NCBI GenBank assembly: GCA_018434325.1
Contig: JAHDPO010000046.1
Span: 1-48,568, forward strand
Source: Clostridia bacterium
GTDB lineage: Bacteria > Bacillota > Peptococcia > DRI-13 > UBA5745
DNA: 48,568 bases
Direction: 5' to 3'
The translations under genes were made by a program, and so were the position numbers. This document shows positions 23,423-48,027 of the stretch, piece by piece. The notes below the pieces were generated by a model. That model saw only the letters and a list, made by a program, of their open reading frames with translations. It ran no database searches and was not told where the DNA came from. Numbering within the stretch: position 1 is the first letter of the stretch; each line of letters starts with the position of its first letter.

Positions 23423-24424
23423 CTAGCCTTTCATTCCAATATAGCAAGCCAAATCTATAATCCGGCAGGCATAGGCCCATTCATTATCATACCAGGATAC
23501 TACTTTAACCATCTTTTCCCCCATCATCATAGTAGCTGAACCATCTACTATGGAGGAACGGCCGTCGCCAATAAAGTCTACAGATACCAGGGGCTCATCC
23601 GTATAGCCTAAGTAACCTTTCAGGTAGGTTGACGACGCCTTGGCCATAGCTTCATTGATTAAGGCTGCATCAGCAGGTTTTTCCAGAGTAACAGTAAGAT
23701 CCACTACGGAGCCAAAGGCTGTGGGCACCCGAAAGGCCATGCCATTAAGCTTTCCATCCAGTTTCGGCAACACCTTCCCCAAGGCTTTGGCCGCTCCTGT
23801 AGAAGTAGGTATGATGGATACCCCGGCAGCCCTGGCCCGCCGCAAATCCTCATGAGGCAGATCCAATATGCGCTGATCATTCGTGTAAGCATGAATCGTA
23901 GTCATTAAGCCTTCTACTATACCAAACTCCTTATCTAAAACATGAGCTATGGGGGCTAAGCAATTAGTGGTGCAGGAAGCATTGGAGATAATAAAATCCT
24001 TTTGCGGATCATACTTATCTTCATTTACACCCATTACAAGGGTTACGTCCTCATTTTTGGCCGGGGCCGAAATAATCACCCGTTTGACGCTGCCGCCTAA
24101 ATGGGCTTTTGCTTTAGTCCCGTCGGTAAAGCGTCCTGTGGCTTCGATAACAATCTCTACTCCTAAATCGGACCAGGGCAGCTCTCCGGGATTGGCCAGG
24201 GCGAAGACCCGTATCTCTTTGCCGTTAACAATAAGGGCTTCCTTAGTATAAGAAACCTCTCCGGAAAACTTGCCGTGAATCGAATCGTATTTCAACAAGT
24301 GGGCCAGGGTCTTGGTATCCGTTAAATCATTGACTGCCACGATCTCTAGCTGGGGGTTGTCCAAAGCCGACCAAAGAGCCAGACGGCCGATCCGGCCAAA
24401 TCCATTAATACCAACTTTTATCAC
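23423..24424 (-). CDS. gap: Glyceraldehyde-3-phosphate dehydrogenase
   Basis: Phosphorylating GAPDH of 333 residues that oxidises glyceraldehyde-3-phosphate to 1,3-bisphosphoglycerate with NAD. The Rossmann start IKVGINGFGRIGR, catalytic Cys in NASCTTNC near residue 150, and HAYTNDQ and SWYDNEW segments are all intact. Translation starts at GTG inside the ATGTGA that ends ptsI, a four-base overlap that ties it tightly to enzyme I. A gap gene at the end of a PTS operon, rather than with pgk and tpi, is unusual and suggests that the pathway encoded upstream yields glyceraldehyde-3-phosphate. Confidence 0.95.
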   Translation of the reverse strand: MIKVGINGFGRIGRLALWSALDNPQLEIVAVNDLTDTKTLAHLLKYDSIHGKFSGEVSYTKEALIVNGKEIRVFALANPGELPWSDLGVEIVIEATGRFTDGTKAKAHLGGSVKRVIISAPAKNEDVTLVMGVNEDKYDPQKDFIISNASCTTNCLAPIAHVLDKEFGIVEGLMTTIHAYTNDQRILDLPHEDLRRARAAGVSIIPTSTGAAKALGKVLPKLDGKLNGMAFRVPTAFGSVVDLTVTLEKPADAALINEAMAKASSTYLKGYLGYTDEPLVSVDFIGDGRSSIVDGSATMMMGEKMVKVVSWYDNEWAYACRIIDLACYIGMKG

Positions 24425-26178
24425 ATTATTCCTCCCATCTCAATCTCAGCCAGTGCCTTTAATTCTTTGATCACCGCAGAAATACTTGGCGCATTCAAAA
24501 CCCTGGGCAAAACTTCCTTTGTCTTTTCTATAGAAACGTGCCTAATCGTATATTTTGTTCTTCCCAATTGTGAAGGTACAACGCTCAACTCTTTAACGCC
24601 CAGAGCAATCCAAATGGGAATTAATAATTGATCGGAAGCAGCTTCACCGCACATGCCCACGGGAATCCCCGCTGCAGCCGCCCCCTGGCAAATAGCTTGA
24701 ACAGACCTCAAAACAGAAGGATTACAAGCGTTATATAACTTTTGCACCCTTTCATTCATCCGGTCCACGGCCATGGTGTATTGAATCAGATCATTGGTTC
24801 CGATACTAAAGAAACTGCTTTCCTTAGCCAACTGATCACAAACCAGTACTGCCGAGGGGGTTTCGATCATTATCCCCACCTCGATATCCCTTTTATAGGG
24901 AATGCCTTCCTTGTCCAAGGAAGCTTTGGCTTGGTCCACCGCTTCCTTTGCCTGGCGCAATTCTTCAAGGTTAGTTATCATGGGAAACATAATTTTCACA
25001 TTGCCAAATATTCCGGCCCTTAAAATTGCCCTAAGCTGGGTTTGGAATATATCTTGTTTAGCTAAGCTGATTCTTATTGCCCGAAAACCTAAAAAGGGAT
25101 TGGCCTCTTCGGGGAGCTTCATATATTTGGCCTGCTTATCTCCGCCTATATCAAGAGTCCTGATGATCACTTCTTTGCCTTCGGCTTCTTCAGCTACCAA
25201 ACGGTAGTGATAAAACTGCTCCTCTTCCGTGGGATACCTGTCGGAGGACATGTAGATAAACTCTGTGCGAAATAAGCCTACTCCGTCTGAATAATTAAGG
25301 GAAGCTCTTCTTTTATCCGCCTTTTCCCTGCCCCCCTCCCCCAAATTGATACAAGCCAATACAGATACACCGTCTTTTGTCACCGCCGGCATATCAATAT
25401 CCTTTTCATAAACGTATTTTAAAAAATGGTCGGAATCCTTTGATTTGTTAAACCGCTCTTTTTCTTCCTCGATGGGGCTTAAAACCAACTCGCCGCTATC
25501 CCCATAGATAATAGCAGGCTCCCCATCCTTTGCTTCAGCTAATAAGCCCTCAACTCCCACAATAGCCGGAATACCCAGGCTCCTTGCAAGGATCACCGTA
25601 TGGGATGTCAGCCCTCCTTGTTCGGCAACAAAACCTGCCAACAAATCGCTATCCATCCGTAAAGTAACATCCGGGGTTAAATTCTGCGCCAAAACAATCC
25701 ATTTTTTATTTTTTTCCGGGGCGATTGCCTGTTCCTGAAAGAACTTCTCTGAGTTGACGCCTTGTATATGCTGAATGATCTCCCGGCATACATTTTCAAT
25801 ATCCAGAGCTCTTTCTTTCAGATACTGGTCATCAAGGCCGGCAAAAGCCTCAACAACAGCATCTTTCTCTAAAGATAGCGCATAGGAAGCATTGAACTTA
25901 TCATTTTTAATCAGCTTGTAGGCTCCTGAAAAAAATTCTTCATCATCGGCTATATCCAGATAGGTCTCCAAAATATCCCTGGCTTCTTTATTTATTTGTG
26001 TGGCAATCAAGCCCTGCAAATACTCCTTATAATCAGATATAGCTTTAGTGAGTTGCCCCGCTTCCTTTTCGGTGTCCTCCACTTTTTTGGGGGATATCAG
26101 GACTGCCGCCGGTATATATTTTTTGATAAAACCGTCTGTACAACCGGGCGCCGCTCCGGAACCGAATAATTTCCTCAT
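24421..26178 (-). CDS. ptsI: PTS enzyme I (phosphoenolpyruvate-protein phosphotransferase)
   Basis: General PTS enzyme that takes phosphate from PEP and gives it to HPr. The swivelling domain holds the active His193 in GGLTSHTVILARSLGIPA; the PEP-binding barrel has FRTEFIYM, FLGFRAIR and the catalytic Cys in GMCGEAASD. The 585 residues are close to normal. AAGGAGG precedes the ATG, 15 bases after the HPr stop. Together with HPr and the EII genes upstream it makes this cluster independent of general PTS genes elsewhere. Confidence 0.96.
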   Translation of the reverse strand: MRKLFGSGAAPGCTDGFIKKYIPAAVLISPKKVEDTEKEAGQLTKAISDYKEYLQGLIATQINKEARDILETYLDIADDEEFFSGAYKLIKNDKFNASYALSLEKDAVVEAFAGLDDQYLKERALDIENVCREIIQHIQGVNSEKFFQEQAIAPEKNKKWIVLAQNLTPDVTLRMDSDLLAGFVAEQGGLTSHTVILARSLGIPAIVGVEGLLAEAKDGEPAIIYGDSGELVLSPIEEEKERFNKSKDSDHFLKYVYEKDIDMPAVTKDGVSVLACINLGEGGREKADKRRASLNYSDGVGLFRTEFIYMSSDRYPTEEEQFYHYRLVAEEAEGKEVIIRTLDIGGDKQAKYMKLPEEANPFLGFRAIRISLAKQDIFQTQLRAILRAGIFGNVKIMFPMITNLEELRQAKEAVDQAKASLDKEGIPYKRDIEVGIMIETPSAVLVCDQLAKESSFFSIGTNDLIQYTMAVDRMNERVQKLYNACNPSVLRSVQAICQGAAAAGIPVGMCGEAASDQLLIPIWIALGVKELSVVPSQLGRTKYTIRHVSIEKTKEVLPRVLNAPSISAVIKELKALAEIEMGGIM

Positions 26179-26193: not shown

Positions 26194-26454
26194 CTAATCC
26201 GTCAAATTCTCAATATAGGATATAACAACCGGTCCTGCCTCACTTTCATCCGAGCCTTCAGCGGTAAGCTTTATCTCCGCATTTTGGCCGATACCGCCGG
26301 CTAAAACACTGACAATGCTTTTGGCGTTAATGGACTTTTCTTTGTAGTAAATTGTTATTTCACTGGAAAATTCTTTGCATAAACGCACTAAACCACTAGC
26401 CGGCCGAGCATGTAAGCCGGATGGGTTTTTAATCATTAAATTTGCTGCAAACAT
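26194..26454 (-). CDS. ptsH: HPr phosphocarrier
   Basis: Phosphocarrier of 86 residues. His15 in GLHARPAS receives phosphate from enzyme I, and Ser46 in NAKSIVSVL is the site used by HPr kinase in Firmicutes, so this copy retains both regulatory and transport sites (though MGVM is replaced by VSVL after Ser46). GGGAGG lies upstream of the ATG. It follows the LevR-type regulator stop by four bases and precedes ptsI by 15, indicating one transcript. Confidence 0.95.
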   Translation of the reverse strand: MFAANLMIKNPSGLHARPASGLVRLCKEFSSEITIYYKEKSINAKSIVSVLAGGIGQNAEIKLTAEGSDESEAGPVVISYIENLTD

Positions 26455-26458
26455 TAAG

Positions 26459-29440
26459 CTATCCTCCCTTTACTATTTTCAAAACAGCTTCCTGGGAACC
26501 GCAAGCAATCAGCCTTTCGATTACCTCTTGCTTTGATATCACATCGTAAATTTGAGAAAATGTATTGCCCCAATCCTCGGTTAAGGCAGGCATTATAATC
26601 AGCTTTACCTCTACGCCGTCCCATAAAAGGGCTTGCCGGCTGATATATATGCCAATTGCCGATTTCAGCACATGCTGACTATAACCATGGGGCATAGCAA
26701 GACCAATATCTAAGCCGGTATTGCCTAAAGCCTCCCTGTCGAAAACACTGGCTCTATATTTATGGTTCACATATCCTTCCTGCTGCAAAAACCCGCACAT
26801 ATAATCAATGATTTCTGTTTTTGTTCTGGAAGGCTGATTTACAAAGATTAGCTTCTGATTAAACAAAGCTTCTCCAAGCTTCCTGCTTTCAAAAGCTTCA
26901 TCAGCTTTGAATTGCTCCCTCACCTCTAAAACCGTTCTTTCGGAAAGTTTTTTTGCTTTTGCAAAAAACTGAGCCGCTGCCTCTGCATCATTTATATCTT
27001 TCATCAAGATATGCGGCAGCCAAGGCAGCCCCGGATTAAAGGGCCCCAAACTTCCTAAAACATGATAGTCTGATTCCAAATCCATAATCTGCTTTTTTAT
27101 ATCCTTGGGCTGCAGGGCATTTAAACAAATTATATCCGCTGAAAACTCCTTGAATTGTTGTTCATTCCTTAGCCACCTCTCCAGAAAAAGGCCGCTGCCT
27201 TCTCCTGTTAAGCAAAAGGCTACAAACAGCCTTGGCTTTTTATATTCTACAGGCCCATTTAAAATAAGCGGCCTTTTTTGGCTGACCAAGGAATTGGCAA
27301 CCTCGTCAATATCAACATTCGGCAAATATACTTTTCGCACCGCATCCAAGACCATAAGGGTATCAACTCTGGTTACCGTGCGGGTAATAATTCCTACTTC
27401 TTCTGTGATCCTTTGCCCAAAGTTCTCCGGAGAACCCATATCGGCAAGAATAATCACACCCTTACCCTGGTTGCTTTTGATTACCGTGTTCAGCAAACGC
27501 TGATATATTTGCTGAGGATTCTCGTCTAAACCAATATCCAAAGGTTCAATGTAATGGGCTCCCATCAAGCTTTCAACCACACTCACCATAGCTGAGGCGA
27601 CATTGCCGTGGGTGGCCACTACCAGACCAATGCTGGGAGTTTCTTCTTGAGTATCATTCCTTGCCGCCGCCAAGTACATTGCCAGAAAACCTACTTCTTC
27701 TTCCGGCAGCTCCAGGCCAAAATCCCTGACGGAGCACTTGGCCATTTTCTTGGCCACTAAGAATTCCTTGGGATGCTGAATGACCAGATTCCTTAAATGG
27801 GCATTCAATATTGGGGCTCCATTTTTCAGCCGGTCCAGAGCGCTGCTCAAATGGGTAGATAATAGGAACAGCAGACCTTCGTCATTAATATCCAAATCCT
27901 CTTTGGCGATAACCAGCATGTCTTTTACCATATTGATTATATTACCGTCCACCATTTTCTGGATTGGCTCGCTGCCCCCGGGATACAGGTTTCTTTGGGC
28001 TTGAAACTGATTTAAATAGCGGCCGATTCTTTTTTCCACAAGGCTCCAAATCGTGGAGTTTATCTCATTATCAGAAATGTGGCGGCTATGGAGTTTTTTA
28101 TATTCCCCTTCAATGATTTTGTAGATCTCATTGGAGAACTCATAAGGGTCCTTCAGATAAACCGCATCTGATAAATCCTCCTGCCCCTCGGGCAAAAACA
28201 AAATATCATGGGTTCCATACCAGGAAATATCTCTTTGGGCGGCAACAATTGCCGCAGCTTCTCCCCCTGCAAAACCCAGGTTATCCGGATTAACAATTAA
28301 AGGGGTATTTGTGATATTGCCTACCACATGGTTTAAATAAGCTCTGGCACAGGCAACCTGGATCTGGCTGCGCAACTCCCCTATGTTTCCCGGATAAATT
28401 GTTGTTAAAAGCTTCTTAATAACAGCGCTTTTTACCAGGATTCCAATATTTATCCGTGTAGACTCCATTTGAAAGAAAGCTTTGATCAGCTTATTCTTCT
28501 CGGCAATTTCCCGTTGCTCCAGGGAAGGCATTTGGATGACCATGGGTATGCGCCGCCGGAAGGTATTTAACAGGGATTCCCCAATATCTTCAGTGGTGGC
28601 GGCAATAATCATCACTTTAACAGCCCGCAGCTCCTTGCTGCCTAAAGCTCGATATACGCCTTTGTCTATAACCTGAAACAACATTTCCTGCCCGTCGGGG
28701 GGGAGGCGATGGACTTCATCCAGAAAGAAAATCCCCCCGTCCGCCGCGGCAATCAGCCCTTCTTTACTCGTAACAGCGCCGGTAAAGGCTCCTGCCGCAT
28801 AGCCAAAAAGCTGGGCAATGAGGAGTTGGGGATTTTCCGCATAATCGGCACAATTAAACTCGGCAAAAGGAAAGGCCTTACTATTTTTTCCTTTTAGGCC
28901 TAAAGCAAATTGGTACATTGCCTCGGCCATTTTACTTTTGCCCACGCCGCTTTCCCCGATGATAATTGTATGAAGGCCTGTAGGCGGATATAAGACGGCC
29001 GCTTTTGCCTGATCTACTTGATGCCTCAAGCTGCCGTTAGAGCCAATCAGTTTAGCAAAGCTATCCTGGGAAAGGTCATCTGCACTATTGGCTGCCGCTT
29101 TCTGGGGTCTCGCTTTCACCTGGCTTCGTGATATATCTTTAGAGCCTTCTAAAAACTTATAAACACTATTGTAAGCAATGTCATAGCCCAAAAGAGTCAG
29201 GTTTTCCATGATTAACCTTACGGTAAGATTTTTATCCCGGCTCAATATACTGTCAATATCTTTTTGGAGGATTAATTCCCGGCGTTCTCTGGAATTTAAT
29301 ATACCTATGTTTTTCCTGATGGTTGTAATCTTGCTTCTGGAAATATGCAGAGCTTTAGCCAACTCTTGATCAGTCAGAGGATTTCTTATATCTTCATTTT
29401 TAATTAATTCTCTTAACTTGCGGGCAATTAGCTCTTCCAT
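26459..29440 (-). CDS. LevR-type sigma-54 activator with PTS regulatory domains
   Basis: Enhancer-binding activator of 993 residues. Order of domains: N-terminal DNA-binding region (LTDQELAKALHISRSKITT near residue 25); AAA+ domain with Walker A GESGVGKS (about 162-169), the sigma-54 contact loop GAFTGA (about 217-222) and Walker B FFLDEVH; a PRD with His residues near 560; an EIIA-mannose-like domain (LVVATHGN near 615); an EIIB-Gat-like part; and a C-terminal EIIA-fructose-type domain (GLAMPHGYSQHV, active His). The last domain replaces the second PRD of classical LevR. I chose the ATG at 29440, six bases after GAGGAG; an upstream in-frame TTG lacks a site. It should activate the sigma-54 promoter at 38538-38554 when its PRD/EIIA sites report PTS flux. 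Confidence 0.92.
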   Translation of the reverse strand: MEELIARKLRELIKNEDIRNPLTDQELAKALHISRSKITTIRKNIGILNSRERRELILQKDIDSILSRDKNLTVRLIMENLTLLGYDIAYNSVYKFLEGSKDISRSQVKARPQKAAANSADDLSQDSFAKLIGSNGSLRHQVDQAKAAVLYPPTGLHTIIIGESGVGKSKMAEAMYQFALGLKGKNSKAFPFAEFNCADYAENPQLLIAQLFGYAAGAFTGAVTSKEGLIAAADGGIFFLDEVHRLPPDGQEMLFQVIDKGVYRALGSKELRAVKVMIIAATTEDIGESLLNTFRRRIPMVIQMPSLEQREIAEKNKLIKAFFQMESTRINIGILVKSAVIKKLLTTIYPGNIGELRSQIQVACARAYLNHVVGNITNTPLIVNPDNLGFAGGEAAAIVAAQRDISWYGTHDILFLPEGQEDLSDAVYLKDPYEFSNEIYKIIEGEYKKLHSRHISDNEINSTIWSLVEKRIGRYLNQFQAQRNLYPGGSEPIQKMVDGNIINMVKDMLVIAKEDLDINDEGLLFLLSTHLSSALDRLKNGAPILNAHLRNLVIQHPKEFLVAKKMAKCSVRDFGLELPEEEVGFLAMYLAAARNDTQEETPSIGLVVATHGNVASAMVSVVESLMGAHYIEPLDIGLDENPQQIYQRLLNTVIKSNQGKGVIILADMGSPENFGQRITEEVGIITRTVTRVDTLMVLDAVRKVYLPNVDIDEVANSLVSQKRPLILNGPVEYKKPRLFVAFCLTGEGSGLFLERWLRNEQQFKEFSADIICLNALQPKDIKKQIMDLESDYHVLGSLGPFNPGLPWLPHILMKDINDAEAAAQFFAKAKKLSERTVLEVREQFKADEAFESRKLGEALFNQKLIFVNQPSRTKTEIIDYMCGFLQQEGYVNHKYRASVFDREALGNTGLDIGLAMPHGYSQHVLKSAIGIYISRQALLWDGVEVKLIIMPALTEDWGNTFSQIYDVISKQEVIERLIACGSQEAVLKIVKGG

Positions 29441-29502
29441 TTTTAGCTCCTCTTTCAAATCAGTTTCAATTAAAATTGATCCTGCTTAGGCAAAACCATA
29501 AG

Positions 29503-30747
29503 TTACCGACCTTTTGTCCCCCAAAGATTTACGGCGGCAGCCAATTCCGGGTATTCCCTGGCGGCTTCATTGATGCCGATGCCGTTTCTAAAGGACTCTA
29601 TCGCCAATAAAATACCTTTAGCTCCAGCCTTTGCTCCCATAGGATGGCCATAAATACCGCCCCCAGCCATAAGAATACATTCATCTCCCAAAAGATTCAT
29701 CAAATACTCAATTGCTCCGGGATGAACTCCGCCGGCTACAGTCATAAAGCTGCTTTTAATATTTTCCATTGGCGCAATGCATTGGGCATGGGCTTCAACC
29801 AACTCGTTGGTATTTAAGCCAAATCTGCCGCTGTCGGGATAAACCAAAGGCATATCCATACCCAGTAAGCGGGGCAGCTTGCCGCAAGCCAAGGCTGTAG
29901 CCATTCCATTATTTTTTGAACGATAATAAGCACCCATGCCGGCACAATGGCCAAAAATCGGATAAATGAGCTTTTCTTCCTTCATTTTGCGAATGAAATC
30001 TTCAACGGCGCCCCAGCCCATAGCCTGGTAATTGACCATTAAAGAATTGGCGCCGGCGTCAATAGCACGGCAAGCCCGCTCAAAAAGGTTTGGTCCTGTG
30101 ATATTGACGGCATAAAGGCAGGTTTGATCTTTGCCCGCTTCTTTCAGCCTGGCCATAACGGCTGCCGTCCTGGCTTCCATGGGAGAGTAATCAGGATAGG
30201 ACAACAACTCGTCGTCCTTAATAATATCCGCTCCCCCTAAGGCAGCCTGTAATGCACCCTGGGCACTGACCTCCGGGCTTACGCCAATACAGGGTTTCAG
30301 AATCGCTCCAACCAGCGGCCGCTCAGGCACCCCCAGCTTTGCCCTGATGCCTTCTATACCCAGCATTGGGCCCGGCAAATCGCTAAGCAGTTTTTTAGGA
30401 AATTCTATATCTACCAGACGAATACCTTCCTGGCCCAAAACATTACCTGCAACAGTGCTCATGATCATCGGCAAATAGGCGGGAAAATTAGCGGTGGGAA
30501 AAGCTATTCTGGCCACGCAGGCATTGCCCTGGGCCATCGGATAAATCCCCGTCACCTTTGCTCCATACATTTCTATTACTTCCGGTGTTTCTCCTTCCAC
30601 ATGGGTCCAGGTACCGGCGCTTTGGTCCGCCGCTACCAGCTTCACCCAATCATAAATATCCGGCTCTTTGTCGGATTCCATATAATAAGTGGCGATTAAA
30701 GAAGATTCATCTATTCCTTCAGGTAATCTCATTGTCGGGAATTTCAT
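29503..30747 (-). CDS. RuBisCO-like protein (form IV family)
   Basis: Member of the RuBisCO large-chain superfamily, 414 residues. The carbamylation and metal motif is kept as GGADIIKDDE (Lys177, Asp179, Glu180), Lys151 of GAILKPC matches the catalytic Lys175 of RuBisCO, and the phosphate-binding glycines are present (VAGGVHPG, AGGGIYGHPMG). The second lysine of KPK is Cys153 and the loop-6 lysine is missing, so CO2 fixation is not expected. Related proteins enolise, isomerise or decarboxylate sugar phosphates (methylthioribulose pathways, 3-oxo-isoapionate-4-phosphate). In this operon it probably acts on the product of the PTS and the zinc dehydrogenase. It is preceded by a 47-residue membrane protein whose stop lies one base from its ATG. 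Confidence 0.92.
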   Translation of the reverse strand: MKFPTMRLPEGIDESSLIATYYMESDKEPDIYDWVKLVAADQSAGTWTHVEGETPEVIEMYGAKVTGIYPMAQGNACVARIAFPTANFPAYLPMIMSTVAGNVLGQEGIRLVDIEFPKKLLSDLPGPMLGIEGIRAKLGVPERPLVGAILKPCIGVSPEVSAQGALQAALGGADIIKDDELLSYPDYSPMEARTAAVMARLKEAGKDQTCLYAVNITGPNLFERACRAIDAGANSLMVNYQAMGWGAVEDFIRKMKEEKLIYPIFGHCAGMGAYYRSKNNGMATALACGKLPRLLGMDMPLVYPDSGRFGLNTNELVEAHAQCIAPMENIKSSFMTVAGGVHPGAIEYLMNLLGDECILMAGGGIYGHPMGAKAGAKGILLAIESFRNGIGINEAAREYPELAAAVNLWGTKGR

Positions 30748-30922: not shown

Positions 30923-30952
30923 GTCTGTAAGGGGCTGTCGCCCCTTACAGAC
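30923..30952 (-). other. 13-bp perfect RNA hairpin between EIIC and downstream genes
   Basis: GTCTGTAAGGGGC pairs perfectly with GCCCCTTACAGAC around a 4-base loop. It lies 18 bases past the EIIC stop. No U-run follows, so it looks more like an RNA-processing or stabilising hairpin that sets relative expression of the upstream EII genes and the downstream RuBisCO-like gene than a full terminator. Confidence 0.7.
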
Positions 30953-30970: not shown

Positions 30971-32239
30971 TTAAACGATGGTTTTCCCAAATATATCGAG
31001 TATTTTATAGATTACCCAGGTAATAGGATTACCGCCTTCAGACAAACAGCTTGTTAAAACATCGCTGTTTTTCAATACGCCTTCGAGCACAGCCAGGTTG
31101 GTATGGGCTGCAGCCAGGGCTGTGGCGCACCAGAAATAAACGGAAAAAACGACAAAAGCAGCAATACAGGTGTGCAGGATATTATTTTTTGCATAATAAG
31201 CCAGGGGAATAATGAACCAGGGGATTGCCACCAGGCTGGCAACAGCCAGCATTCTATTGCCGGGGATAATCGACATGATGGTGACAATAGGCGTCATAAT
31301 CATAATACTAGTCATATTACAAGGGTTTCCCATTAAAGTAGAGGCGTCAATACCAATCCAGATCTGCCTGCCTTTAAGCCTTTGTTCACAGAACTCCTGG
31401 GCGGCGCCGGCTATGGGCAATAAGCCTTCCATCATAATCTGAATCATCCGGGGCAGCAAAATCATCACAGCTGCCATGTTGATGCCCAATAAGAAGATAT
31501 TGACCAAATCAAAGCCCGCTAAGACACCGATTACAAAGCCGATGATGGCGCCTACCACCATTGTCTCGCCAATAATGCCAAGCTTTTCCTGCATGGTTTC
31601 CGGATCAGCTTTTACGCTTCTGATGCCGGGGATCTTTTGGCAAAGCTTGATCACCGGAATACCGATCATGGCGGGAGCAATAATTGCGCCTGTAGGCCAG
31701 GTACAGGCTTCCATACCAGAATCCTCTTGGAAGCGGGGCGCTACATAGTCGGACCATTTCCAGGTAATAATCATATAAATTGCCGTTCCTATACAGGACC
31801 AAATAACACTGCCGGTAGCGCCGTAAATCAAACCGCCGCAAGCTAAAAAGCTCCAATAATTCCAGAAGTCGATCATTAATGTCTTGGTGAAGTTGGTAAT
31901 TAACAGGACTAAATTAAGAGCTATACCCATTAAGATTAAAATCCCTGCAGCAGGAGCACCCCAGGCATAAGCAATCAAGGCCCAGCCTGTATCGACTATA
32001 TCCAGATTCCAACCTAGTCTGGCTACCATGGCTTGGGTAGCAGGAGTCATCTTGGCTACCAGCATATCGGTAACCAGGTTCATGCCAACCATACCCACAG
32101 CTCCGGTAAGGGCTGCTCTAATGGCATCTCCCAGTTTCATGCGGAAAATAAGAGCAATTATGATAAGCCCCAAAGGTAAAATACCGCTGCCTCCCAATGA
32201 CTGGAGAGTGCTTGACAAACCGCTCAAAAAGGCATCCAT
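30971..32239 (-). CDS. PTS EIIC, galactitol (Gat) family
   Basis: Membrane permease of the galactitol-type PTS, 422 residues with about ten hydrophobic segments along its whole length (for example ILPLGLIIIALIF, GAIIGFVIGVLAGF and FVVFSVYFWCATAL). The family feature MGNPCNMTS and a GIPVIKL segment are present. It imports and phosphorylates a polyol or related compound with EIIA and EIIB encoded just upstream. AAGGAAG lies before the ATG. The substrate of Gat-family permeases ranges from galactitol to pentitols, so it is not fixed here. Confidence 0.92.
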   Translation of the reverse strand: MDAFLSGLSSTLQSLGGSGILPLGLIIIALIFRMKLGDAIRAALTGAVGMVGMNLVTDMLVAKMTPATQAMVARLGWNLDIVDTGWALIAYAWGAPAAGILILMGIALNLVLLITNFTKTLMIDFWNYWSFLACGGLIYGATGSVIWSCIGTAIYMIITWKWSDYVAPRFQEDSGMEACTWPTGAIIAPAMIGIPVIKLCQKIPGIRSVKADPETMQEKLGIIGETMVVGAIIGFVIGVLAGFDLVNIFLLGINMAAVMILLPRMIQIMMEGLLPIAGAAQEFCEQRLKGRQIWIGIDASTLMGNPCNMTSIMIMTPIVTIMSIIPGNRMLAVASLVAIPWFIIPLAYYAKNNILHTCIAAFVVFSVYFWCATALAAAHTNLAVLEGVLKNSDVLTSCLSEGGNPITWVIYKILDIFGKTIV

Positions 32240-32272: not shown

Positions 32273-32770
32273 TTAGATAGCTTGAACAACGATTGCTTCA
32301 ATTTCTTTGGCATTTTCCGCTTCGATAATTTTCTGTACCAAAATAGGATCCTGTATCAGCTCCATTATTTTGGACATAGTGTCTAACTGCCCTTGATTGT
32401 CTGCCATAGCCAACATAAAAATCACTTTAACTCCAATGGTCTCCTCCGGATCGTCGATACGATTAAAAAACACCTCCTTTTTTACTTTGGCTACCAAGAT
32501 AGCCGAGCTGATCACATGAACCCTGTCACTATGGGGAATGGCCACAGCTATAGGTTCCACAGGTATGCCTGTGGGAAAAGACTTCTCCCTTTCAATTACC
32601 GCTCCACCATAAGAGGTTTTTACTTTTCCCAGGGCTTCCAGGTGAGAGGCCATTTCCAACAATACCTCATTTTTATCAGAATTGTCAGAAATGTAACCCA
32701 ATATAGCTGGCAGGTGGATACTGCTGGTATTCATTGAGCTGTTCACATCCGTTTCCATTAGGCTCGCCAT
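32273..32770 (-). CDS. PTS EIIA, Gat/fructose type
   Basis: Soluble EIIA (PTS_EIIA_2 fold, 165 residues) that accepts phosphate from HPr on His80 in VAIPHSDRVHV and passes it to EIIB. It is the second of three adjacent EII genes, three bases after EIIB and 33 before EIIC. The first 15 residues, rich in Met and Ser, may not all be translated; an in-frame ATG at 32758 is an alternative start. Confidence 0.92.
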   Translation of the reverse strand: MASLMETDVNSSMNTSSIHLPAILGYISDNSDKNEVLLEMASHLEALGKVKTSYGGAVIEREKSFPTGIPVEPIAVAIPHSDRVHVISSAILVAKVKKEVFFNRIDDPEETIGVKVIFMLAMADNQGQLDTMSKIMELIQDPILVQKIIEAENAKEIEAIVVQAI

Positions 32771-32773
32771 ATC

Positions 32774-33070
32774 TTACTCTTTTAATAAGGCTTTTTTTAT
32801 GTTTTCTTTCACCTGTTCTTTACCTCGTCCTGTAATAAACGGGATGCCGTCCACTACCGGGATATCGCCAAAATCCAGGGTCAGCTTAGCCATCAAAAGG
32901 ATCAGGTCCGGTTTGAGCTGGGCCACGGCAGTTTTGCCCGCTGTCGCATTGCGTTTTTGCACATTAGCTTTAAATCCCAATTCTTTGCAGACATCTTCGC
33001 AGGCCTTTGCTCCCACTGATGAAGTGGCAAAGCCGGCGCCGCATAAAACCAATATTGTTTTTGTTTCCAT
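32774..33070 (-). CDS. PTS EIIB, Gat family
   Basis: Small cytosolic EIIB of 98 residues. The phosphorylated Cys10 lies in the P-loop-like LVLCGAGFATSS, as in GatB. It follows the zinc dehydrogenase by 36 bases, with AAGGAGG before the ATG. With EIIA and EIIC it forms a complete substrate-specific PTS. Confidence 0.93.
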   Translation of the reverse strand: METKTILVLCGAGFATSSVGAKACEDVCKELGFKANVQKRNATAGKTAVAQLKPDLILLMAKLTLDFGDIPVVDGIPFITGRGKEQVKENIKKALLKE

Positions 33071-33106: not shown

Positions 33107-34147
33107 TTAGAATACCACTACGCCTTTGATCATTTTTCCCTTGCCCATGTCTTCAAAACCCTTTGCTAAATCCTTCAGTTCATACCGGTGGGTGATGTAT
33201 TTTTTAGCGTCCAACTGACCGCTCAATACCAGATTTAATGCTCTGCGGTTTACTTCCGGGGAATAAGCTGAAGCGCCATAAATCGTGATTTCTTTATAGT
33301 GGATGGCATTAGTATCTAATATTACCCCGCCCTTTGGCGGGATGCCCCCAAAGAAAATCACCTTGCCTCTTTTTCTGGTAAGATTAATAGCGTCAGCTTG
33401 GGCCTGGCCGGCAGGACAAGCGCTGATCACCGTGTCGGCTCCCCGGCCCTTGGTTTTTTCTAAAACCAGCTTTTTTAACTCCGGATCGCCGCTGCCCATG
33501 GTATAAATGTTTTTAAATCCCCGGTCCCTGGCCAGTTGAGCCTTATCCGGATTCATTTCCACAATTATCGTTTCCTTCACGCCCCGTATCCCGGCGATTT
33601 CGCTGTGCAGGCAACCGATGGTTCCGGATCCGATTACCACCACCAGATCTTCCATTACGATATTTGTATTAATTTGAGCGTTCAACACAGAAGAAGCGGT
33701 TTCAGCTATGACTGTATCAACAGGATCGACGCCGTCAGGGATAATCGTAAAACAACCGGTATCCAGCATATCCTGAGAAAAGGCCACATATTCGGCGAAG
33801 CCTCCGGCAATGCCCTCGGCAGTTCCGATCATGCGCATGTTGTCGCATTGATTTTGAATGCCATTGGTGCAATACCAGCAGCGGCCGCAGGGTATGACCG
33901 GAGCAATGGAGAGCTTTGCACCAACAGGAAAGGCGGGGTATTCGCTCTCCACAACCTCACCGGCAATCTCATGACCGGAGATGGCCGGATAAATAGTTTT
34001 AGATGAGCCGCCTCCATAGGTCCTTAAATCGGAACCACAAATACCGCAGGCAATTGTCTTAATTAAAATGCCTCTTGGCGGACAAGCCGGTGTTTCTACC
34101 TCCTCATAACGCAAATCATAAGGTCCGTGCAAAACTGCAGCGTACAT
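33107..34147 (-). CDS. Zinc-dependent alcohol/polyol-phosphate dehydrogenase (GatD-like)
   Basis: Medium-chain dehydrogenase of 346 residues. Catalytic zinc ligands appear in CGICGSD and GHEIAGEV, the structural zinc site in CGRCWYCTNGIQNQC, and the NAD fold in VVVIGSGTIGCLHSEIA. In Gat-type operons the GatD homologue oxidises the phosphorylated polyol made by the PTS to a ketose phosphate, the likely role here. GGAGG lies before the ATG. It follows the E2 catalytic gene by 18 bases. Confidence 0.92.
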   Translation of the reverse strand: MYAAVLHGPYDLRYEEVETPACPPRGILIKTIACGICGSDLRTYGGGSSKTIYPAISGHEIAGEVVESEYPAFPVGAKLSIAPVIPCGRCWYCTNGIQNQCDNMRMIGTAEGIAGGFAEYVAFSQDMLDTGCFTIIPDGVDPVDTVIAETASSVLNAQINTNIVMEDLVVVIGSGTIGCLHSEIAGIRGVKETIIVEMNPDKAQLARDRGFKNIYTMGSGDPELKKLVLEKTKGRGADTVISACPAGQAQADAINLTRKRGKVIFFGGIPPKGGVILDTNAIHYKEITIYGASAYSPEVNRRALNLVLSGQLDAKKYITHRYELKDLAKGFEDMGKGKMIKGVVVF

Positions 34148-34165: not shown

Positions 34166-34822
34166 CTAATTTCCATCAATATTCTCTAATTTAGCCGCCA
34201 GACTTGTCAGGAACCGGGCTGCCGCAGCCCCGTCAATCACTCTATGGTCAAGGCTGATACCAAGATTGATCGTCTTTACCGGTTTAAAGGCTGATCCATC
34301 CCACTTAGGCTGGTCCGTCATTTTGCCGACAGAGAGGATCGCTGCATTGGGGCTATTAACGATGGCGCTAAAATGGGTAATATTAAACATCCCCAGATTG
34401 CTTATAATGAAAGTCGCTCCCGTTAAATCTTCATAAGTGAAGATCCCTTTAACCGCTTTTTCTTTAATGGCTTCCATCGCCTCATGAAGCTGGGCTAAAG
34501 ATTTATTGCCAGCATCGGGAATAACCGGTACCAATAAACCCCTGGGAGTATCAACGGCTATACCCAGATTGATATTTTCATGAACCAGGATTTTTGAGCC
34601 GTCATCCCAGGAGCTGTTCATAAGAGGGAATTTTTTCATGGTTTCTGCAAGGACTTTTCCTAAGAGGGTAGTATAGGAAGCTTTAAATTCTAAAGCCGAC
34701 CTGTATTGAATCAGCCGGGTGCAGTCCACTGCTGTATAAAGCTGAAACTGAGGAATTTCCCAGTTTGCAGTCATTTGCCTGGCCATGGCCTTTTTTAAGC
34801 TGCTAAGTTTTACCTCACTCAT
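34166..34822 (-). CDS. E2 acyltransferase catalytic domain as a separate protein
   Basis: Dihydrolipoamide acyltransferase core of 218 residues, with the catalytic His193 and Asp197 in LDHRVIDGAAAARF, and the segments RGLLVPVIPDA and TFIISNLGMFNI. It has no lipoyl domain and no peripheral-subunit-binding domain; it starts directly at the catalytic core. The lipoyl domain is encoded by the preceding gene in another frame, overlapping by eight bases (ATGAGTGA), which looks like translational coupling of two proteins rather than a frameshift. It transfers an acyl group from lipoyl to CoA. Normal E2 chains are a single 400-550 residue polypeptide. Confidence 0.9.
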   Translation of the reverse strand: MSEVKLSSLKKAMARQMTANWEIPQFQLYTAVDCTRLIQYRSALEFKASYTTLLGKVLAETMKKFPLMNSSWDDGSKILVHENINLGIAVDTPRGLLVPVIPDAGNKSLAQLHEAMEAIKEKAVKGIFTYEDLTGATFIISNLGMFNITHFSAIVNSPNAAILSVGKMTDQPKWDGSAFKPVKTINLGISLDHRVIDGAAAARFLTSLAAKLENIDGN

Positions 34823-35063
34823 CAGCTTCCACCCACGCTATGGTTTTGGTTATTTCCACCGTATCTCCTTCCTGAGCCAGTATTTCCACAATCGTTCCGG
34901 CAAAGGCTGCCTCAATATCGGTTACCGCCTTATCGGTTTCAATTTGGGCAATGATTTCTCCCTCCTCGATTTGATCCCCGACTTTTTTCAGCCAGCTTAC
35001 AATAGTGCCTTCTTCCATATCCAGCCCGATTTTCGGCATAACAATTTCTTTTCTCATCGCCAT
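34815..35063 (-). CDS. Free-standing lipoyl-domain protein
   Basis: An 82-residue biotinyl/lipoyl domain starting near MRKEIVMPKIGLDMEEG, with the lipoylated Lys45 in IETDKAVTDI. It is the swinging-arm part of E2 and carries the acyl group between E1, E2 and E3. AAGGAG lies before the first ATG; a second ATG six bases on has better spacing. No hinge or subunit-binding domain follows the lipoyl fold before its TGA. Confidence 0.9.
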   Translation of the reverse strand: MAMRKEIVMPKIGLDMEEGTIVSWLKKVGDQIEEGEIIAQIETDKAVTDIEAAFAGTIVEILAQEGDTVEITKTIAWVEADE

Positions 35064-35099: not shown

Positions 35100-36464
35100 T
35101 TAAAACTGAAATAACACTTCCCGAATTATTTCACTCACCGTAGGGTGGGGGAAAACCAGAGTCTTTAATTCCTCTATGGTCTTTTTGCTTGCCAATAGAT
35201 TGGCGGCGCCCCAAATTATTTCCGAAGCATAGCTGCCGATCAAATGCACTCCTAAAAGCAGCTCCCGCTCTTTATCCACAAGTATTTTACAATAGCAATT
35301 TGAGGCTTTACCTTTTTCCGCCACAAATCTGCCGGAATAGGCCATGGGCAGCTTGGCGGCAGCATAGTTGAGTCCCTTGGCTTTTGCCGTTTCCTCCGTT
35401 TCACCCACAAAGGCCACTTCCGGCGTAGTGTAAACCACCGAAGGTATGAGCTCATAGGACATACTATCGGCGACGCCCGTCATGTGATTAACCGCCACCT
35501 CCGCTTCCCGGTAGGCAATATGGGCCAGCATTGCCTTTGCATTAACGTCTCCCGCCGCATAGACGCCTTTTCTGTTTGTTTCCAGGTGCAAATCGGTGAC
35601 TATAGCCAGACCTTCACGTTCAATGCCCAGTCTCTCCAAGCCAAGCCCTTCCGTATTGGGACTGCGGCCTGCGGAAATCAAAACCTTTGAAGCCTCTATT
35701 TCCGCTGTTTTTCCCTCCTTTTCATAATAGACCTTGCCCTCAGAAATTTTTGTCACGTGACAATTAAGGAAAAACTCTATGCCTTCTTTAGCTAATTCTT
35801 TCTGCAAGAATCCGGCTATTTCCGAATCGGTATTGCCGGCAATCTTGTCTAACACTTCTATTACGGTAACCCGGCAGCCCACTTGAGAGAAATAAGCGGC
35901 CATCTCCAGACCCACTATGCCGGCGCCAATCACCACCAGCTTTTCCGGTAAGGTTTCGGCAGCTAATAATTCCCTGCTGGTTACGACAAAGCCTTGGGCC
36001 AGGCCCTCCTGCAAACCGGTAATCCCAGGTAAGCTTGCCCTTGCGCCCGTTGCAATGAGAAGATTTCTTCCTTCATATTCCTTCCCTTGAGCGCTGACCA
36101 AAAAACCTTTGGATGTACTGCCCCTGATCTCCGCCCCGGCCTTTTCTACGTTAACCTGAGCTGACTTTAATTGAGCTGCCACCCCCGAAACTAAGCTTCT
36201 TACCGCCGCATCCTTTCGTTTCAAGGCCAGGGAATGATCAAAGCTTACTTCCTTTGCCAAAACACCGTAATCTTGAGAGCCTTGGGCGTTTTTGAACATT
36301 TTAGCGGAATACAGCAGAGATTTAGTGGGTATGCAGCCCTCATTGAGGCAGACCCCGCCCAGGCTTTTTTCCTCAAACAAAGTGACCTTGAGGCCTCTTT
36401 GCGCTGCCCGCAAAGCCCCCAGATAACCGGCAGGACCGCCGCCGATAATAATTAAATCTTCCAT
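35100..36464 (-). CDS. lpdA: Dihydrolipoamide dehydrogenase (E3)
   Basis: FAD/NAD oxidoreductase of 454 residues that reoxidises dihydrolipoamide. It has the FAD fold DLIIIGGGPAGYLGALRAAQ, the redox disulfide in GGVCLNEGCIPTK, the NAD site VVIGAGIVGLEMA, and the C-terminal His-Glu pair in HPTVSEIIREV. I chose the ATG at 36464, after AGGGGGG; the longer in-frame start at 36485 would overlap E1 beta. No N-terminal lipoyl domain is present, unlike some acetoin complex E3 proteins. Confidence 0.94.
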   Translation of the reverse strand: MEDLIIIGGGPAGYLGALRAAQRGLKVTLFEEKSLGGVCLNEGCIPTKSLLYSAKMFKNAQGSQDYGVLAKEVSFDHSLALKRKDAAVRSLVSGVAAQLKSAQVNVEKAGAEIRGSTSKGFLVSAQGKEYEGRNLLIATGARASLPGITGLQEGLAQGFVVTSRELLAAETLPEKLVVIGAGIVGLEMAAYFSQVGCRVTVIEVLDKIAGNTDSEIAGFLQKELAKEGIEFFLNCHVTKISEGKVYYEKEGKTAEIEASKVLISAGRSPNTEGLGLERLGIEREGLAIVTDLHLETNRKGVYAAGDVNAKAMLAHIAYREAEVAVNHMTGVADSMSYELIPSVVYTTPEVAFVGETEETAKAKGLNYAAAKLPMAYSGRFVAEKGKASNCYCKILVDKERELLLGVHLIGSYASEIIWGAANLLASKKTIEELKTLVFPHPTVSEIIREVLFQF

Positions 36465-36472
36465 AAGCCCCC

Positions 36473-37444
36473 CTATTGCAAACAAGTTTTCACTGCAGCT
36501 AGAATCTTCTCGCTATTGGGTAAAAAGGCGTCTTCTAAAATCGGGGCAAAGGGCACCGGCACATCGGGAGCTGCGACCCGCAAAACCGGTTTTTTTAGAG
36601 CAGTAAAAGCTTTTTCCTGAATGGTGGCGGCTATTTCCCCGCCAAAGCCTGCCTTGCGGCAAGCTTCATGGGCTACCACGGCATGGCCTGTTTTTCTGAC
36701 AGAATTGATTATGGTTTCTTCCTCAAAAGGTGCAATGCTCCTGATATCGATGACTTCTGCTTCTACGCCTTCCTTTTCCAGGACTTCGGCAGCTTTCAGC
36801 GCTTGGTTGACCATTGCCGAATAAGTCACAATAGTAATATCTTTGCCGGTTCTTTTAATATCACAGGTATAGTCGCATTCATAAGGCTCTTCAGGAACAT
36901 GGCATTTCGTTTTATAAAGAGCTTTGTGTTCAATAAATACCACAGGATTATTATCTCTAACAGCCCGTAAAAGCAGGCCCTTGGCATCATAGGCATTGGA
37001 AGGGATCAGCACCCTGATGCCGGGAATATGGCCTAAAATAGCCTCCAGGGATTGGGAATGCTGGGCGCCGTTGCCCAAACCGGCCCCGCATTGCGTCCTG
37101 ATCACCAGGGGGAGATTAACCATGCCCCCATACATATACCTGAGCTTTGCCGCTTGGTTAAGTATTTGGTCAAAGCAGGTGCCTAAAAAATCAATGTAGG
37201 ATAATTCCATGATGGGCCTCAGGTTAAGCATTGCCGAACCTACGCCTAATCCCACAATAGCCGATTCAGAAATTGGGGTATCAAAAACCCGCTCCGCTCC
37301 AAAGTTCTCCAGCAGGCCATAAGAACAACGAAGCTGACCTCCGTAAACAGCAATATCTTCGCCGGCTGTAAAAACTTCAGGGCTGCTGTTTAAGGCAATA
37401 TGAAGAGCCTCATTGATTGCTTCCCGCATCGAAATTTTTCTCAT
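36473..37444 (-). CDS. TPP-dependent dehydrogenase E1 beta subunit (AcoB-like)
   Basis: Beta chain of the E1 component, 323 residues, of the transketolase-like pyrimidine-binding type. Motifs include FTAGEDIAVYGG, FDTPISESAIVGLGVGSAM (the Glu that activates thiamin) and VIDIRSIAPF in the C-terminal domain. It resembles AcoB and PdhB equally; the alpha partner favours the acetoin-type. I chose the ATG at 37444, after GGGAGG, rather than an upstream TTG. It follows E1 alpha by 25 bases. Confidence 0.92.
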   Translation of the reverse strand: MRKISMREAINEALHIALNSSPEVFTAGEDIAVYGGQLRCSYGLLENFGAERVFDTPISESAIVGLGVGSAMLNLRPIMELSYIDFLGTCFDQILNQAAKLRYMYGGMVNLPLVIRTQCGAGLGNGAQHSQSLEAILGHIPGIRVLIPSNAYDAKGLLLRAVRDNNPVVFIEHKALYKTKCHVPEEPYECDYTCDIKRTGKDITIVTYSAMVNQALKAAEVLEKEGVEAEVIDIRSIAPFEEETIINSVRKTGHAVVAHEACRKAGFGGEIAATIQEKAFTALKKPVLRVAAPDVPVPFAPILEDAFLPNSEKILAAVKTCLQ

Positions 37445-37469
37445 TGTTTTTCCTCCCAATTAATCTTCA

Positions 37470-38474
37470 TTAAGACTTAACAAAAGGCTGCCAGGTAATA
37501 TTTTCAAAATCCTGAGCAAAAAGATCATTCCATAAGTCTTCCGCCTGGGGTTCAGGCGCCAGCTTCGCTTTATTGCTGGCTTCTAAAACCATAGCTTTCT
37601 CTTCTGAGGCGATTGCTTTTAATTCATCCGGAAGCACACCATATTCTTGTATTAAAAGGTTCTCCAGCCTGGTTATCGGGCACTCCTGACGGCGGCTGAT
37701 CACTTCTTCTTTTGAACGGTAATTTTCATTATCGCCAAAATAATGGCCCGATAGCCGGTAAGTCTTCATCTCTAAAAGCACCGGCCCGGTTCCCTGGCGC
37801 ACTTCTTCCAGACAGTTGCCAAACTCCCTGTAAACTTGAGCGATGTCGTTGCCGTCCACAGTAAGGCCTTTTATACCGTAAGCGGCGGCTCTCTCGCTGA
37901 TATTTTCAATGTTTACGGACTTTCCAATATTCATGGATATTGCCCAATTATTGTTTTCACAAAGGAAGATCACCGGCAGCTTCTTGACAGAGGCCAGGTT
38001 GAGCGCTTCGTGGAAAGAGCCTTGATTAGAAGCGCCGTCGCCGAAAAAGCAAACTACGACATTATCGGTTTGCTTATATTTAAGAGCGAAAGCGGCTCCG
38101 GTGGCAATAGGGATGCCGCCGCCGACAATACCGTTTGCTCCCAGCATGCCAATGGAAAGATCAGCAATATGCATGGAGCCGCCCTTGCCTTTGCAATAGC
38201 CGGTTTTTCTGCCCATCAGCTCGGCAAACATTCTTTCCAAATCGGCTCCTTTAGCTATGCAATGACCGTGGCCCCTATGGGTAGAAGTAATATAATCTCC
38301 TTCTTTAAGATGGGCGCAAACGCCCACGGCTATCGCTTCCTGACCATTGTAAGTATGGATGGCAGCCCTGGTCAGATTCATTTTGGCAAGCTCGATCGCC
38401 TCATTTTCAAAGGCACGAATTCTGTTCATTTTTCTATAGAAGTTAATGAGCTGCTCCTTAGATAAAAGGGTCAT
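37470..38474 (-). CDS. TPP-dependent dehydrogenase E1 alpha subunit (AcoA-like)
   Basis: Alpha chain of E1, 334 residues from the ATG at 38474. It carries THRGHGHCIAKG and MLGANGIVGGGIPIATGAA segments, which are characteristic of acetoin dehydrogenase AcoA, and the thiamin-diphosphate motif GDGASNQG ... NNNWAIS. In acetoin dehydrogenase this chain cleaves an alpha-hydroxyketone to an aldehyde and an acyl group that goes to CoA; 2-oxo acid dehydrogenase activity is an alternative. The longer in-frame reading to 38633 would run across the sigma-54 promoter, so the shorter start is preferred. It is the first gene after that promoter. Confidence 0.92.
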   Translation of the reverse strand: MTLLSKEQLINFYRKMNRIRAFENEAIELAKMNLTRAAIHTYNGQEAIAVGVCAHLKEGDYITSTHRGHGHCIAKGADLERMFAELMGRKTGYCKGKGGSMHIADLSIGMLGANGIVGGGIPIATGAAFALKYKQTDNVVVCFFGDGASNQGSFHEALNLASVKKLPVIFLCENNNWAISMNIGKSVNIENISERAAAYGIKGLTVDGNDIAQVYREFGNCLEEVRQGTGPVLLEMKTYRLSGHYFGDNENYRSKEEVISRRQECPITRLENLLIQEYGVLPDELKAIASEEKAMVLEASNKAKLAPEPQAEDLWNDLFAQDFENITWQPFVKS

Positions 38475-38537: not shown

Positions 38538-38554
38538 AGCAACAATTATGCCAA
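38538..38554 (-). promoter_or_regulatory. Sigma-54 (RpoN) promoter of the catabolic island
   Basis: The minus strand reads TTGGCATAATTGTTGCT: the GG and GC elements are exactly ten bases apart (consensus TGGCAC-N5-TTGCW, with one mismatch in the -24 block). It lies 64 bases upstream of E1 alpha and its presumed activator, with a GAFTGA loop, is encoded at the far end of the same gene set. Confidence 0.78.
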
Positions 38555-38658: not shown

Positions 38659-39543
38659 TCAGATTTGTTTTGTCATTTCAAATTTGTTTTTCATGACCAA
38701 TTTGAAATGATTTTTAATTTGGTCATAAGCCATTCCTTGCGATAACAAATTGCATATATGGAAAACGCCTGCTTCCTCATTCGTCCAGGGACAAACTAAC
38801 TTAGCTTTTTCCTTTAGCTTAGTCTGAGCATTTCCTATAGCCAAACCTAAACCAACTGTTTGTATCATTTCAATATCATTTAGCCCGTCTCCCATAGCGG
38901 CTGTCTTTGCTAATTCTAAACCCAATTTATCTGCCATAAAGCTAATGCCAAAGCCTTTGGATATGCCTTGGGCCACTACTTCGGAATAACCGGGAACCGT
39001 ATTATAGGCAGGACAATCCGGCAGTTCTTTTAATAACATTGCATTAGCCTTTTTTAAGCTCCCCTCCGACCCGCATAAAACAAATTTATACCAAGGCAGG
39101 GGAATTTGATCTAATGATACGATATTGCCGGAATGCCCTTCTCTTTTAACGATTATTTCCGCCATTTTATGATGAGAAATTTTCAAAACAGGCCCTTCTT
39201 TGGGAAAGACCAATATCCCCAGCTGAGGAAAATTGCGTTGAATCAAAGCCAGTACCTCTTTAGCTTCTTTAGGCAAAAACCTCTCAAACAGCACTTTTTT
39301 TTCTTTAGGATCATAGATTAAAGAGCCATTCAGCAAGACCATCGGCCCATTGATAAGTTTAAATAATTCCGGATAAATGGCTATACTGTGGAGATTCCTG
39401 CCGGAAGCGACGGTAAACCTGCCTCCGGCGGCAATATATTTCTTAACGCCCTCGATTGTTTGATTTGTCACTTCCGAATTCTGATTCAATAAGGTATCAT
39501 CCATATCCGTAATAAAAAGGTCGTAAGCTAAATTTCTTTTCAT
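38659..39543 (-). CDS. Cof-type HAD-family phosphatase
   Basis: Haloacid dehalogenase-fold hydrolase of 294 residues with a class II cap. The nucleophile motif is DLFITDMDDTLLN, motif II lies in FTVASGR, and the C-terminal metal motif is AAMGDGLNDIEM. Such proteins dephosphorylate sugar phosphates or flavins; next to a PTS island it may relieve sugar-phosphate stress. The ATG at 39543 follows AAGGAG by seven bases and is preferred to the in-frame ATG at 39558. It is upstream of the sigma-54 promoter, so it is probably transcribed separately. Its last 20 codons contain the candidate enhancer repeats. Confidence 0.9.
   Translation of the reverse strand: MKRNLAYDLFITDMDDTLLNQNSEVTNQTIEGVKKYIAAGGRFTVASGRNLHSIAIYPELFKLINGPMVLLNGSLIYDPKEKKVLFERFLPKEAKEVLALIQRNFPQLGILVFPKEGPVLKISHHKMAEIIVKREGHSGNIVSLDQIPLPWYKFVLCGSEGSLKKANAMLLKELPDCPAYNTVPGYSEVVAQGISKGFGISFMADKLGLELAKTAAMGDGLNDIEMIQTVGLGLAIGNAQTKLKEKAKLVCPWTNEEAGVFHICNLLSQGMAYDQIKNHFKLVMKNKFEMTKQI
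38673..38726. promoter_or_regulatory. Two overlapping inverted repeats, candidate enhancer sites
   Basis: TCATTTCAAATT (38673-38684) and AATTTGAAATGA (38699-38710) are perfect 12-bp arms; ATGACCAA (38693-38700) and TTGGTCAT (38719-38726) are perfect 8-bp arms interleaved with them. They lie 120-185 bp upstream of the sigma-54 promoter, the usual distance for an activator of this class, and fall inside the 3-prime end of the HAD gene. Confidence 0.6.
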
Positions 39544-39652
39544 ACTAAACTCCTTCATTATTTTGCCTATCTATTAATAATATAAGCAATTAATATGCCA
39601 CGGTTTTTCAATTTTGTTATAGCAAAAACAACAAAAAATACTCCCCCATCCA

Positions 39653-47966: not shown

Positions 47967-48027
47967 ATACAAACTCCTTCATCGATAAATCATGCTTGTT
48001 TATTCAGCCATGATGATGAAGGAGTTT

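Follow-up and report, generated by a model that had tools for sequence, protein, structure and literature searches.

What does a member of the RuBisCO superfamily do in an operon for sugar-alcohol uptake and a thiamine-dependent dehydrogenase complex? The question is raised by the window, i.e., the whole stretch of 48,568 nucleotides that we analysed, in which a RuBisCO-like protein (RLP) of 414 aa is encoded on the reverse strand at 29503..30747. To our knowledge, few RLP reactions have been described so far. In strict anaerobes, the clade to which this protein belongs connects an RLP with the uptake of sugar alcohols by a PTS and with a lipoyl complex of unusual make-up. From the genes, their conserved linkage, the active-site residues and the predicted fold we infer a pathway, substrate and every reaction step included, in which the RLP would be a carbamate- and Mg-dependent isomerase of ketose monophosphates serving anaerobic polyol catabolism; we put the probability of this reading at about 0.42. 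A sugar-phosphate rearrangement feeding a thiamine-dependent splitting would, if true, be a new role for the Rubisco family.

A form IV protein in a clade of its own

The RLP gene is intact, with an ATG start and no internal stops, and its product matches both the N-terminal and the catalytic RuBisCO domains of Pfam (RuBisCO_large_N, 8e-15; RuBisCO_large, 2e-41), so the coordinates, strand and family given in the original prediction were right: this is a form IV protein of the RuBisCO superfamily. Its structure, predicted from 14 sequences (mean pLDDT 85, pTM 0.87), matched known structures with Z 40-48. MtnW structures came first (Z 45-48, over almost the full chain), and Z values of 42-44 were reached by form III RuBisCO and by IV-Photo RLPs; the closest solved fold is that of the DK-MTP-1P enolase MtnW (YkrW-type; 2oem), with a VIA Z of 46-48 and an rmsd of 1.8-2.4 Å over 373-393 residues. 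Identity to all the RLPs and RuBisCOs with a solved structure or a curated name that we tried was 26-33%, and no close identity to a characterised RLP was found: the best value for an RLP of known activity was 33% (G. kaustophilus MtnW), and OiaX-annotated proteins reached 26-30%. The NCBIfam equivalog models for MtnW gave 264 of 409 and 222 of 513 bits, below their cut-offs, and that for OiaX gave 169 bits against a cut-off of 700.

The window RLP, five orthologues from Anaerostipes (77-79% identical to it) and one from a Eubacteriales MAG (locus L007; 72%) form a single clade of seven, with UFBoot 100 in both of two maximum-likelihood trees and a long stem of 0.66-0.68. This clade falls outside OiaX and outside IV-Photo, and it is excluded from the group that joins MtnW with uncharacterised RLPs of anaerobes, with a support of 80 in one tree and 97/98 in the other. 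The window clade could prove to be kin of the R. rubrum isomerase Rru_A1998 (Deep-Ykr), and such kinship would favour the isomerase reading.

Orthologues at 72-79% identity occurred only in five of the eleven Anaerostipes species searched and in the Eubacteriales MAG. No close orthologue was present in 396 other sampled members of the family of Anaerostipes, nor in the 396 other genomes (397 in all) sampled from the phylum to which the L007 genome belongs, and a similar search of its order yielded no further one. The host genome has four genus-mates, none of which carries a close orthologue; one carries an RLP of 38% identity. The patchy distribution of the sequences suggests horizontal transfer; a search for viral copies of the RLP found none. 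Among the papers available to our literature search there was no report joining RuBisCO-like with Lachnospiraceae and none on a PTS-linked RLP.

Active-site residues

To map the residues we aligned the protein with form III RuBisCO, with MtnW and IV-Photo RLPs and with OiaX-annotated proteins; the spinach numbering is given first. The carbamate lysine and metal ligands K201/D203/E204 are present as K177/D179/E180, and K175, N123 and H294 are retained as K151, N102 and H267, in agreement with the carbamate lysine, acidic ligands and single catalytic lysine that the original prediction had described as kept. Its statement that the phosphate loops are kept holds for the P1 site, where T65/W66/G381/G403/G404 correspond to T46, W47, G340, G362 and G363, but not for P2, where R295/H327/S379 are replaced by C268/L301/A338. 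The loop-6 lysine is indeed absent (K334 is R308), and E60 is D41. Residues D41, C268, L301, R308 and A338 are invariant in all seven members and, as a set, distinctive for the clade; the superfamily tree and residue comparison that had been proposed as a check thus returned a separate clade in two trees with an invariant residue set of its own. The change of KPK to KPC is real (K177 is C153) but is not distinctive, and we rejected it as a special signature since the cysteine is shared by nearly all RLPs of the related group and by PDB 4nas. Arginine at position 334 is also found in the IV-Photo RLPs (1ykw, 2qyg), which share the metal site with the window RLP and differ from it in having Glu at position 123, in their identity of 33% and in forming a separate clade.

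RuBisCO chemistry is the basis on which the retained residues can be read as capable of enolisation and the protein as incapable of carboxylation. Residues needed for RuBP carboxylation are substituted (K334R, R295C, H327L, S379A, K177C), a combination that, as predicted, differs from that of true RuBisCO; forms I-III were rejected on Lys334 and R295/H327/S379 being Arg308, Cys268, Leu301 and Ala338. Because the enolisation machinery and the P1 site are kept and the P2 site is lost, the substrate would be a monophosphate, and the residues fit the enolisation of such a compound held at P1, without bisphosphate carboxylation.

MtnW shares with the window RLP the carbamate Lys, the metal ligands, the P1 site and the absence of the loop-6 Lys. 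Its catalytic base Lys98, however, aligns with Asn102, so the MtnW mechanism would not be available in the same form, and its loop-6 residue is Ser rather than Arg. We rejected MtnW on this substitution, on the subthreshold NCBIfam scores and on the position of the window RLP outside the MtnW clade. We give hardly any credence to the broader proposal that the protein is a DK-MTP-1P enolase of methionine salvage or else a residual RuBisCO: the top NCBIfam score is for MtnW, which together with form III RuBisCO also provides the nearest PDB structures, but the scores lie far under the cut-offs, Lys98, the loop-6 Lys, R295 and H327 are all missing, and the operon contains no methionine-salvage or Calvin-cycle genes.

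The operon and its conservation

On one strand, the reverse, the genes run in the order E1 alpha, E1 beta, E3, lipoyl protein, E2, Zn-dehydrogenase, IIB, IIA, IIC, RLP, LevR, HPr, EI and GAPDH. The TPP dehydrogenase is encoded by E1 alpha (37470..38474; TIGR03182, 365 bits) and E1 beta (36473..37459; NF006667, 351 bits, above cut-off); we moved the start of E1 alpha from 38633 to 38474 by homology, as in the longer ORF the TIGR03182 match sets in at residue 59 and the PDB match at residue 54. There follow the E3 dihydrolipoyl dehydrogenase (35100..36485; TIGR01350, 440 bits, above cut-off), a free-standing lipoyl-domain protein of 82 aa with an ETDKA lipoylation motif (34815..35063; Biotin_lipoyl, 3e-21) and an E2 acyltransferase of 218 aa (34166..34822), which is a catalytic domain alone with a DHRVIDG motif (Pfam 2-oxoacid_dh, 8e-69, residues 3-215) and whose top PDB match is a PDH E2. 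All the parts of an acetoin/pyruvate dehydrogenase complex are matched and encoded together here. Unlike in that complex, the lipoyl domain is a separate protein of 80-82 aa, unfused to E2, and the E2 has neither a lipoyl nor a subunit-binding domain. The sequence of E1 is compatible with pyruvate as well as acyloin substrates, and with PDH as well as acetoin-DH specificity. This pairing of a free lipoyl protein with a catalytic-domain-only E2 (34166-35063), seen also in Anaerostipes and L007, is unusual for complexes of the PDH/acetoin-DH type.

The remaining genes concern uptake, oxidation and regulation. A Zn-dependent medium-chain alcohol/polyol dehydrogenase (33107..34147; Pfam ADH_N and ADH_zinc_N) resembles Tdh, IolM and idonate-DH, all far under their cut-offs. 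The PTS consists of a Gat-like EIIB (32774..33070; Pfam PTS_IIB, 1.4e-8; NCBIfam GatB, 1e-12), a family 2 EIIA (32273..32770; Pfam PTS_EIIA_2, 9e-27) and an EIIC of the galactitol (Gat) family (30971..32239; Pfam EIIC-GAT, 2e-53; NCBIfam Gat IIC, 326 bits, below the cut-off of 542). Past the RLP lie a LevR-type sigma-54 activator with AAA, PRD, EIIA-man and EIIA_2 domains (26459..29458), HPr (26194..26454; Pfam PTS-HPr, 7e-24), enzyme I (24421..26178) and a GAPDH (23423..24424) that overlaps the end of the EI gene by 4 nt and is an extra copy, two more being encoded elsewhere in the genome. The neighbourhood of PTS and thiamin complex noticed earlier is therefore confirmed, and is extended by the lipoyl-less E2, the separate lipoyl protein and the HPr, EI and GAPDH genes beyond the regulator. 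A Cof-type HAD phosphatase gene on the same strand (38659..39558; Pfam Hydrolase_3, 4e-47), present also at L007, probably belongs to the same regulon.

The complex, with its free lipoyl protein and lipoyl-less E2, adjoins the RLP in all seven clade members, and lipoyl/E2 genes lie beside the RLP at none of the 37 other RLP loci examined. The galactitol-family PTS is present at six of the seven loci, five of which also have the Zn-dehydrogenase. From E1 alpha to the RLP, gene order is conserved gene by gene in four Anaerostipes loci (L004, L006, L090, L091), with the HPr gene placed ahead of the RLP in L090 and L091. The fifth (L005) has the same order without the Zn-dehydrogenase, whose absence is either an assembly error or a natural deletion, and has E2 and IIB fused in one ORF (7274-7972). 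At four of the five Anaerostipes loci the RLP gene is followed by one for a lipoate ligase, recognised by eye; the L005 contig does not cover this region. The Eubacteriales MAG retains RLP, E1, lipoyl protein, E2 and E3, and an ABC permease, a xylulokinase-like FGGY kinase and a 2-hydroxyacid dehydrogenase replace the PTS and Zn-dehydrogenase. Hence the RLP and the TPP/lipoyl complex are the conserved core, and the uptake module varies; the adjacency of GAPDH, HPr and EI is not kept as a set in Anaerostipes. The original prediction had raised the possibility of a distinct functional class, and phylogeny, residues and the conserved, unique operon partners make such a class likely for this clade.

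Two Anaerostipes genomes (G106 and G109) encode no other E1 alpha of the same type, which argues that the complex is dedicated. This bears on a rather unlikely alternative, in which an isomerase or epimerase activity of the RLP turns an unusual ketose phosphate into an ordinary one (e.g., xylulose 5-phosphate) and the complex is an ordinary pyruvate dehydrogenase downstream of glycolysis. In its favour, E1, E2 and E3 are most PDH-like, and the second RLP cluster of the host genome has a PTS and a dehydrogenase without an E1 complex; but the RLP and the complex stay linked in L007 even where a kinase and an ABC transporter take the place of the PTS and dehydrogenase, and the complex is the sole one of its kind in those two genomes.

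We consider it improbable that the RLP is an enolase or tautomerase of a 2,3-diketo pentyl phosphate (cf. MtnW, and LsrG in AI-2/DPD-phosphate degradation) and that the TPP complex splits this diketone, yielding acetyl-CoA. Fold and sequence are nearest to MtnW, and MtnW-like enolase chemistry on a diketone would fit the fold equally well; in addition, the kinase at L007 has a match to autoinducer-2 kinase as well, at 178 bits and thereby under the cut-off, and the HAD phosphatase adjoins in both the window and L007. Against this stand Asn102 at the position of the MtnW catalytic lysine, the absence of an MtnB-type dehydratase from the cluster and the absence of the HAD gene from the Anaerostipes clusters.

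Related RuBisCO-like proteins

The host genome has a second RLP (L059, 5870-10564), 34-36% identical to the window RLP, next to genes for a Gat-family EIIC, an EIIA, a Zn-dehydrogenase and a LevR regulator, and no E1 complex. In one genus-mate (G004; L108, 6250-10564) a PTS, a split transketolase, a Zn-dehydrogenase, an RLP of 36-38% identity and a HAD gene are clustered; this is a parallel pathway that uses a different TPP enzyme. Further PTS-, kinase- and aldolase-linked RLPs occur in 18 more Lachnospiraceae genomes of the 397 sampled. Other RLP loci pair with class II aldolase, split transketolase and triosephosphate-isomerase- or RpiB-like genes, and the neighbours of the RLPs of Lachnospiraceae and relatives (L092-L122) also include FGGY or DUF1537-like kinases and UPF0261/Tm-1-like proteins; these RLPs probably have several separate functions. 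The L059 and L092-L122 proteins share the KPC motif with the window RLP, and many of them the Gat PTS, Zn-dehydrogenase or LevR, but they are 31-45% identical, have Lys or Gly at position 334, and are accompanied by class II aldolase, split transketolase or erythrulose-phosphate-isomerase-like genes and never by the lipoyl complex.

Several of the related loci (L093, L107, L121), like L007, have 2-hydroxyacid dehydrogenases and kinases beside the RLP, and some have erythrulose-phosphate isomerase-like genes, as would suit an OiaX-like enzyme that acts on a branched 3-oxo sugar-acid phosphate by decarboxylation or transcarboxylation. OiaX, the 3-oxo-isoapionate-4-phosphate decarboxylase, resembles the window RLP in the RLP fold, the metal site and the catabolic sugar operon. 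Yet OiaX and its relatives keep the substrate-binding R295 and K334, and often H327, all missing in the window RLP; they form a separate clade, and the neighbours of OiaX are a four-carbon acid sugar kinase and TRAP/ABC transporters. Identity with OiaX was rejected on the low equivalog score, the missing R295/K334 and the separate clade. As a polyol PTS and a Zn-dehydrogenase would not yield a 3-oxo acid, we hold out little prospect for such an enzyme here.

A proposed polyol pathway

According to the isomerase reading, the Gat-type PTS would import and phosphorylate a sugar alcohol, and the Zn-dehydrogenase would oxidise the phosphorylated polyol, giving a ketose phosphate whose carbonyl lies close to the phosphorylated end. 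By enolisation and reprotonation in the style of RuBisCO, the RLP would then shift the carbonyl along the chain, giving an alpha-hydroxyketone that the TPP-dependent E1 could cleave. The acyl group would pass from E1 to the free lipoyl protein, to E2 and to CoA, with E3 re-oxidising the lipoate, and the triose phosphate would go to GAPDH. In L007, the ABC/kinase module would supply the RLP with a ketose phosphate, as the PTS/dehydrogenase module would elsewhere. The simplest specific version would run from a 5-deoxypentitol through 5-deoxypentulose 1-phosphate and 1-deoxyxylulose 5-phosphate to acetyl-CoA and glyceraldehyde 3-phosphate.

Two precedents lead to this route. The R. rubrum RLP is reported to turn 5-methylthioribulose 1-phosphate into 1-methylthioxylulose 5-phosphate, a step that leads on to DXP (PMC4958253); purified PDH makes 1-deoxyxylulose, mutations in aceE lead to more DXP in E. 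coli, and XylB phosphorylates deoxyxylulose (PMC3424233). By analogy, a PDH-type E1 that forms such acyloins could in principle also cleave them, and a carbonyl shift followed by that cleavage would give an acyl-CoA and a triose phosphate. As 5-deoxy-D-ribitol has been reported as a rat metabolite (PMC6302742), deoxypolyols are plausible gut substrates, other polyols being equally possible.

Besides the R. rubrum precedent, the isomerase reading draws on the invariable presence of the RLP and E1/E2/E3/lipoyl core in the clade and its absence from the other loci, on the active-site residues and the dedicated complex described above, on the extra GAPDH that ends the unit, and on the second RLP, accompanied by a PTS and Zn-dehydrogenase only, where an isomerase would supply the missing step towards a central intermediate. 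Counting against it, the isomerisation role is borrowed from one distant relative, the R. rubrum MTRu-1P isomerase, which is reported to carry out the like conversion of a ketose 1-phosphate to a 1-substituted xylulose 5-phosphate in another pathway with other partners (a cupin sulfurylase). Furthermore, GAPDH, HPr and EI vary in Anaerostipes, the 2-hydroxyacid dehydrogenase of L007 is unaccounted for, L005 has no Zn-dehydrogenase, and E1 fits either pyruvate or acyloin. More tentatively, the clade may represent a new functional class of carbonyl-migrating RLP isomerases that feed a dedicated TPP/lipoyl complex cleaving acyloin phosphates, and so provide anaerobes, including Anaerostipes, with a direct and aldolase-free conversion of (deoxy)polyols to acyl-CoA and triose phosphate. 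If true, the pathway would add a reaction to the RuBisCO superfamily and a new entry to acetyl-CoA, and would offer a handle on the larger group of uncharacterised PTS-, kinase- and aldolase-linked RLPs. As the clade includes two near-complete Anaerostipes genomes, the pathway may be testable in culture.

Regulatory sites

Exact matches to the sigma-54 (-24/-12) pattern TGGCAYN5TTGCW occur three times in the window against 0.22 expected, and none of 100 shuffles reached three. Two are promoter-like and correctly oriented on the reverse strand, TGGCATAATTGTTGCT ahead of E1 alpha (38538..38553) and TGGCATATTAATTGCT ahead of the HAD gene (39585..39600), and the third is intragenic. A sigma-54 site also precedes the RLP in the second cluster of the host genome, and the LevR-type sigma-54 activator encoded in each of the two clusters is consistent with these predicted sites. 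Scans for sigma-70 promoters and terminators did not rise above the shuffled background. The gap of 223 bp between EIIC and the RLP contains a strong hairpin of 13 bp (30923..30952, reverse strand), possibly a partial terminator or processing site, hairpins overall being no commoner than in shuffles; the corresponding gaps in Anaerostipes are of similar size, and the HPr gene fills two of them. Elsewhere in the window, at 45641-47972, a SecA-like protein appears by eye to be split over two overlapping ORFs, possibly by a frameshift.
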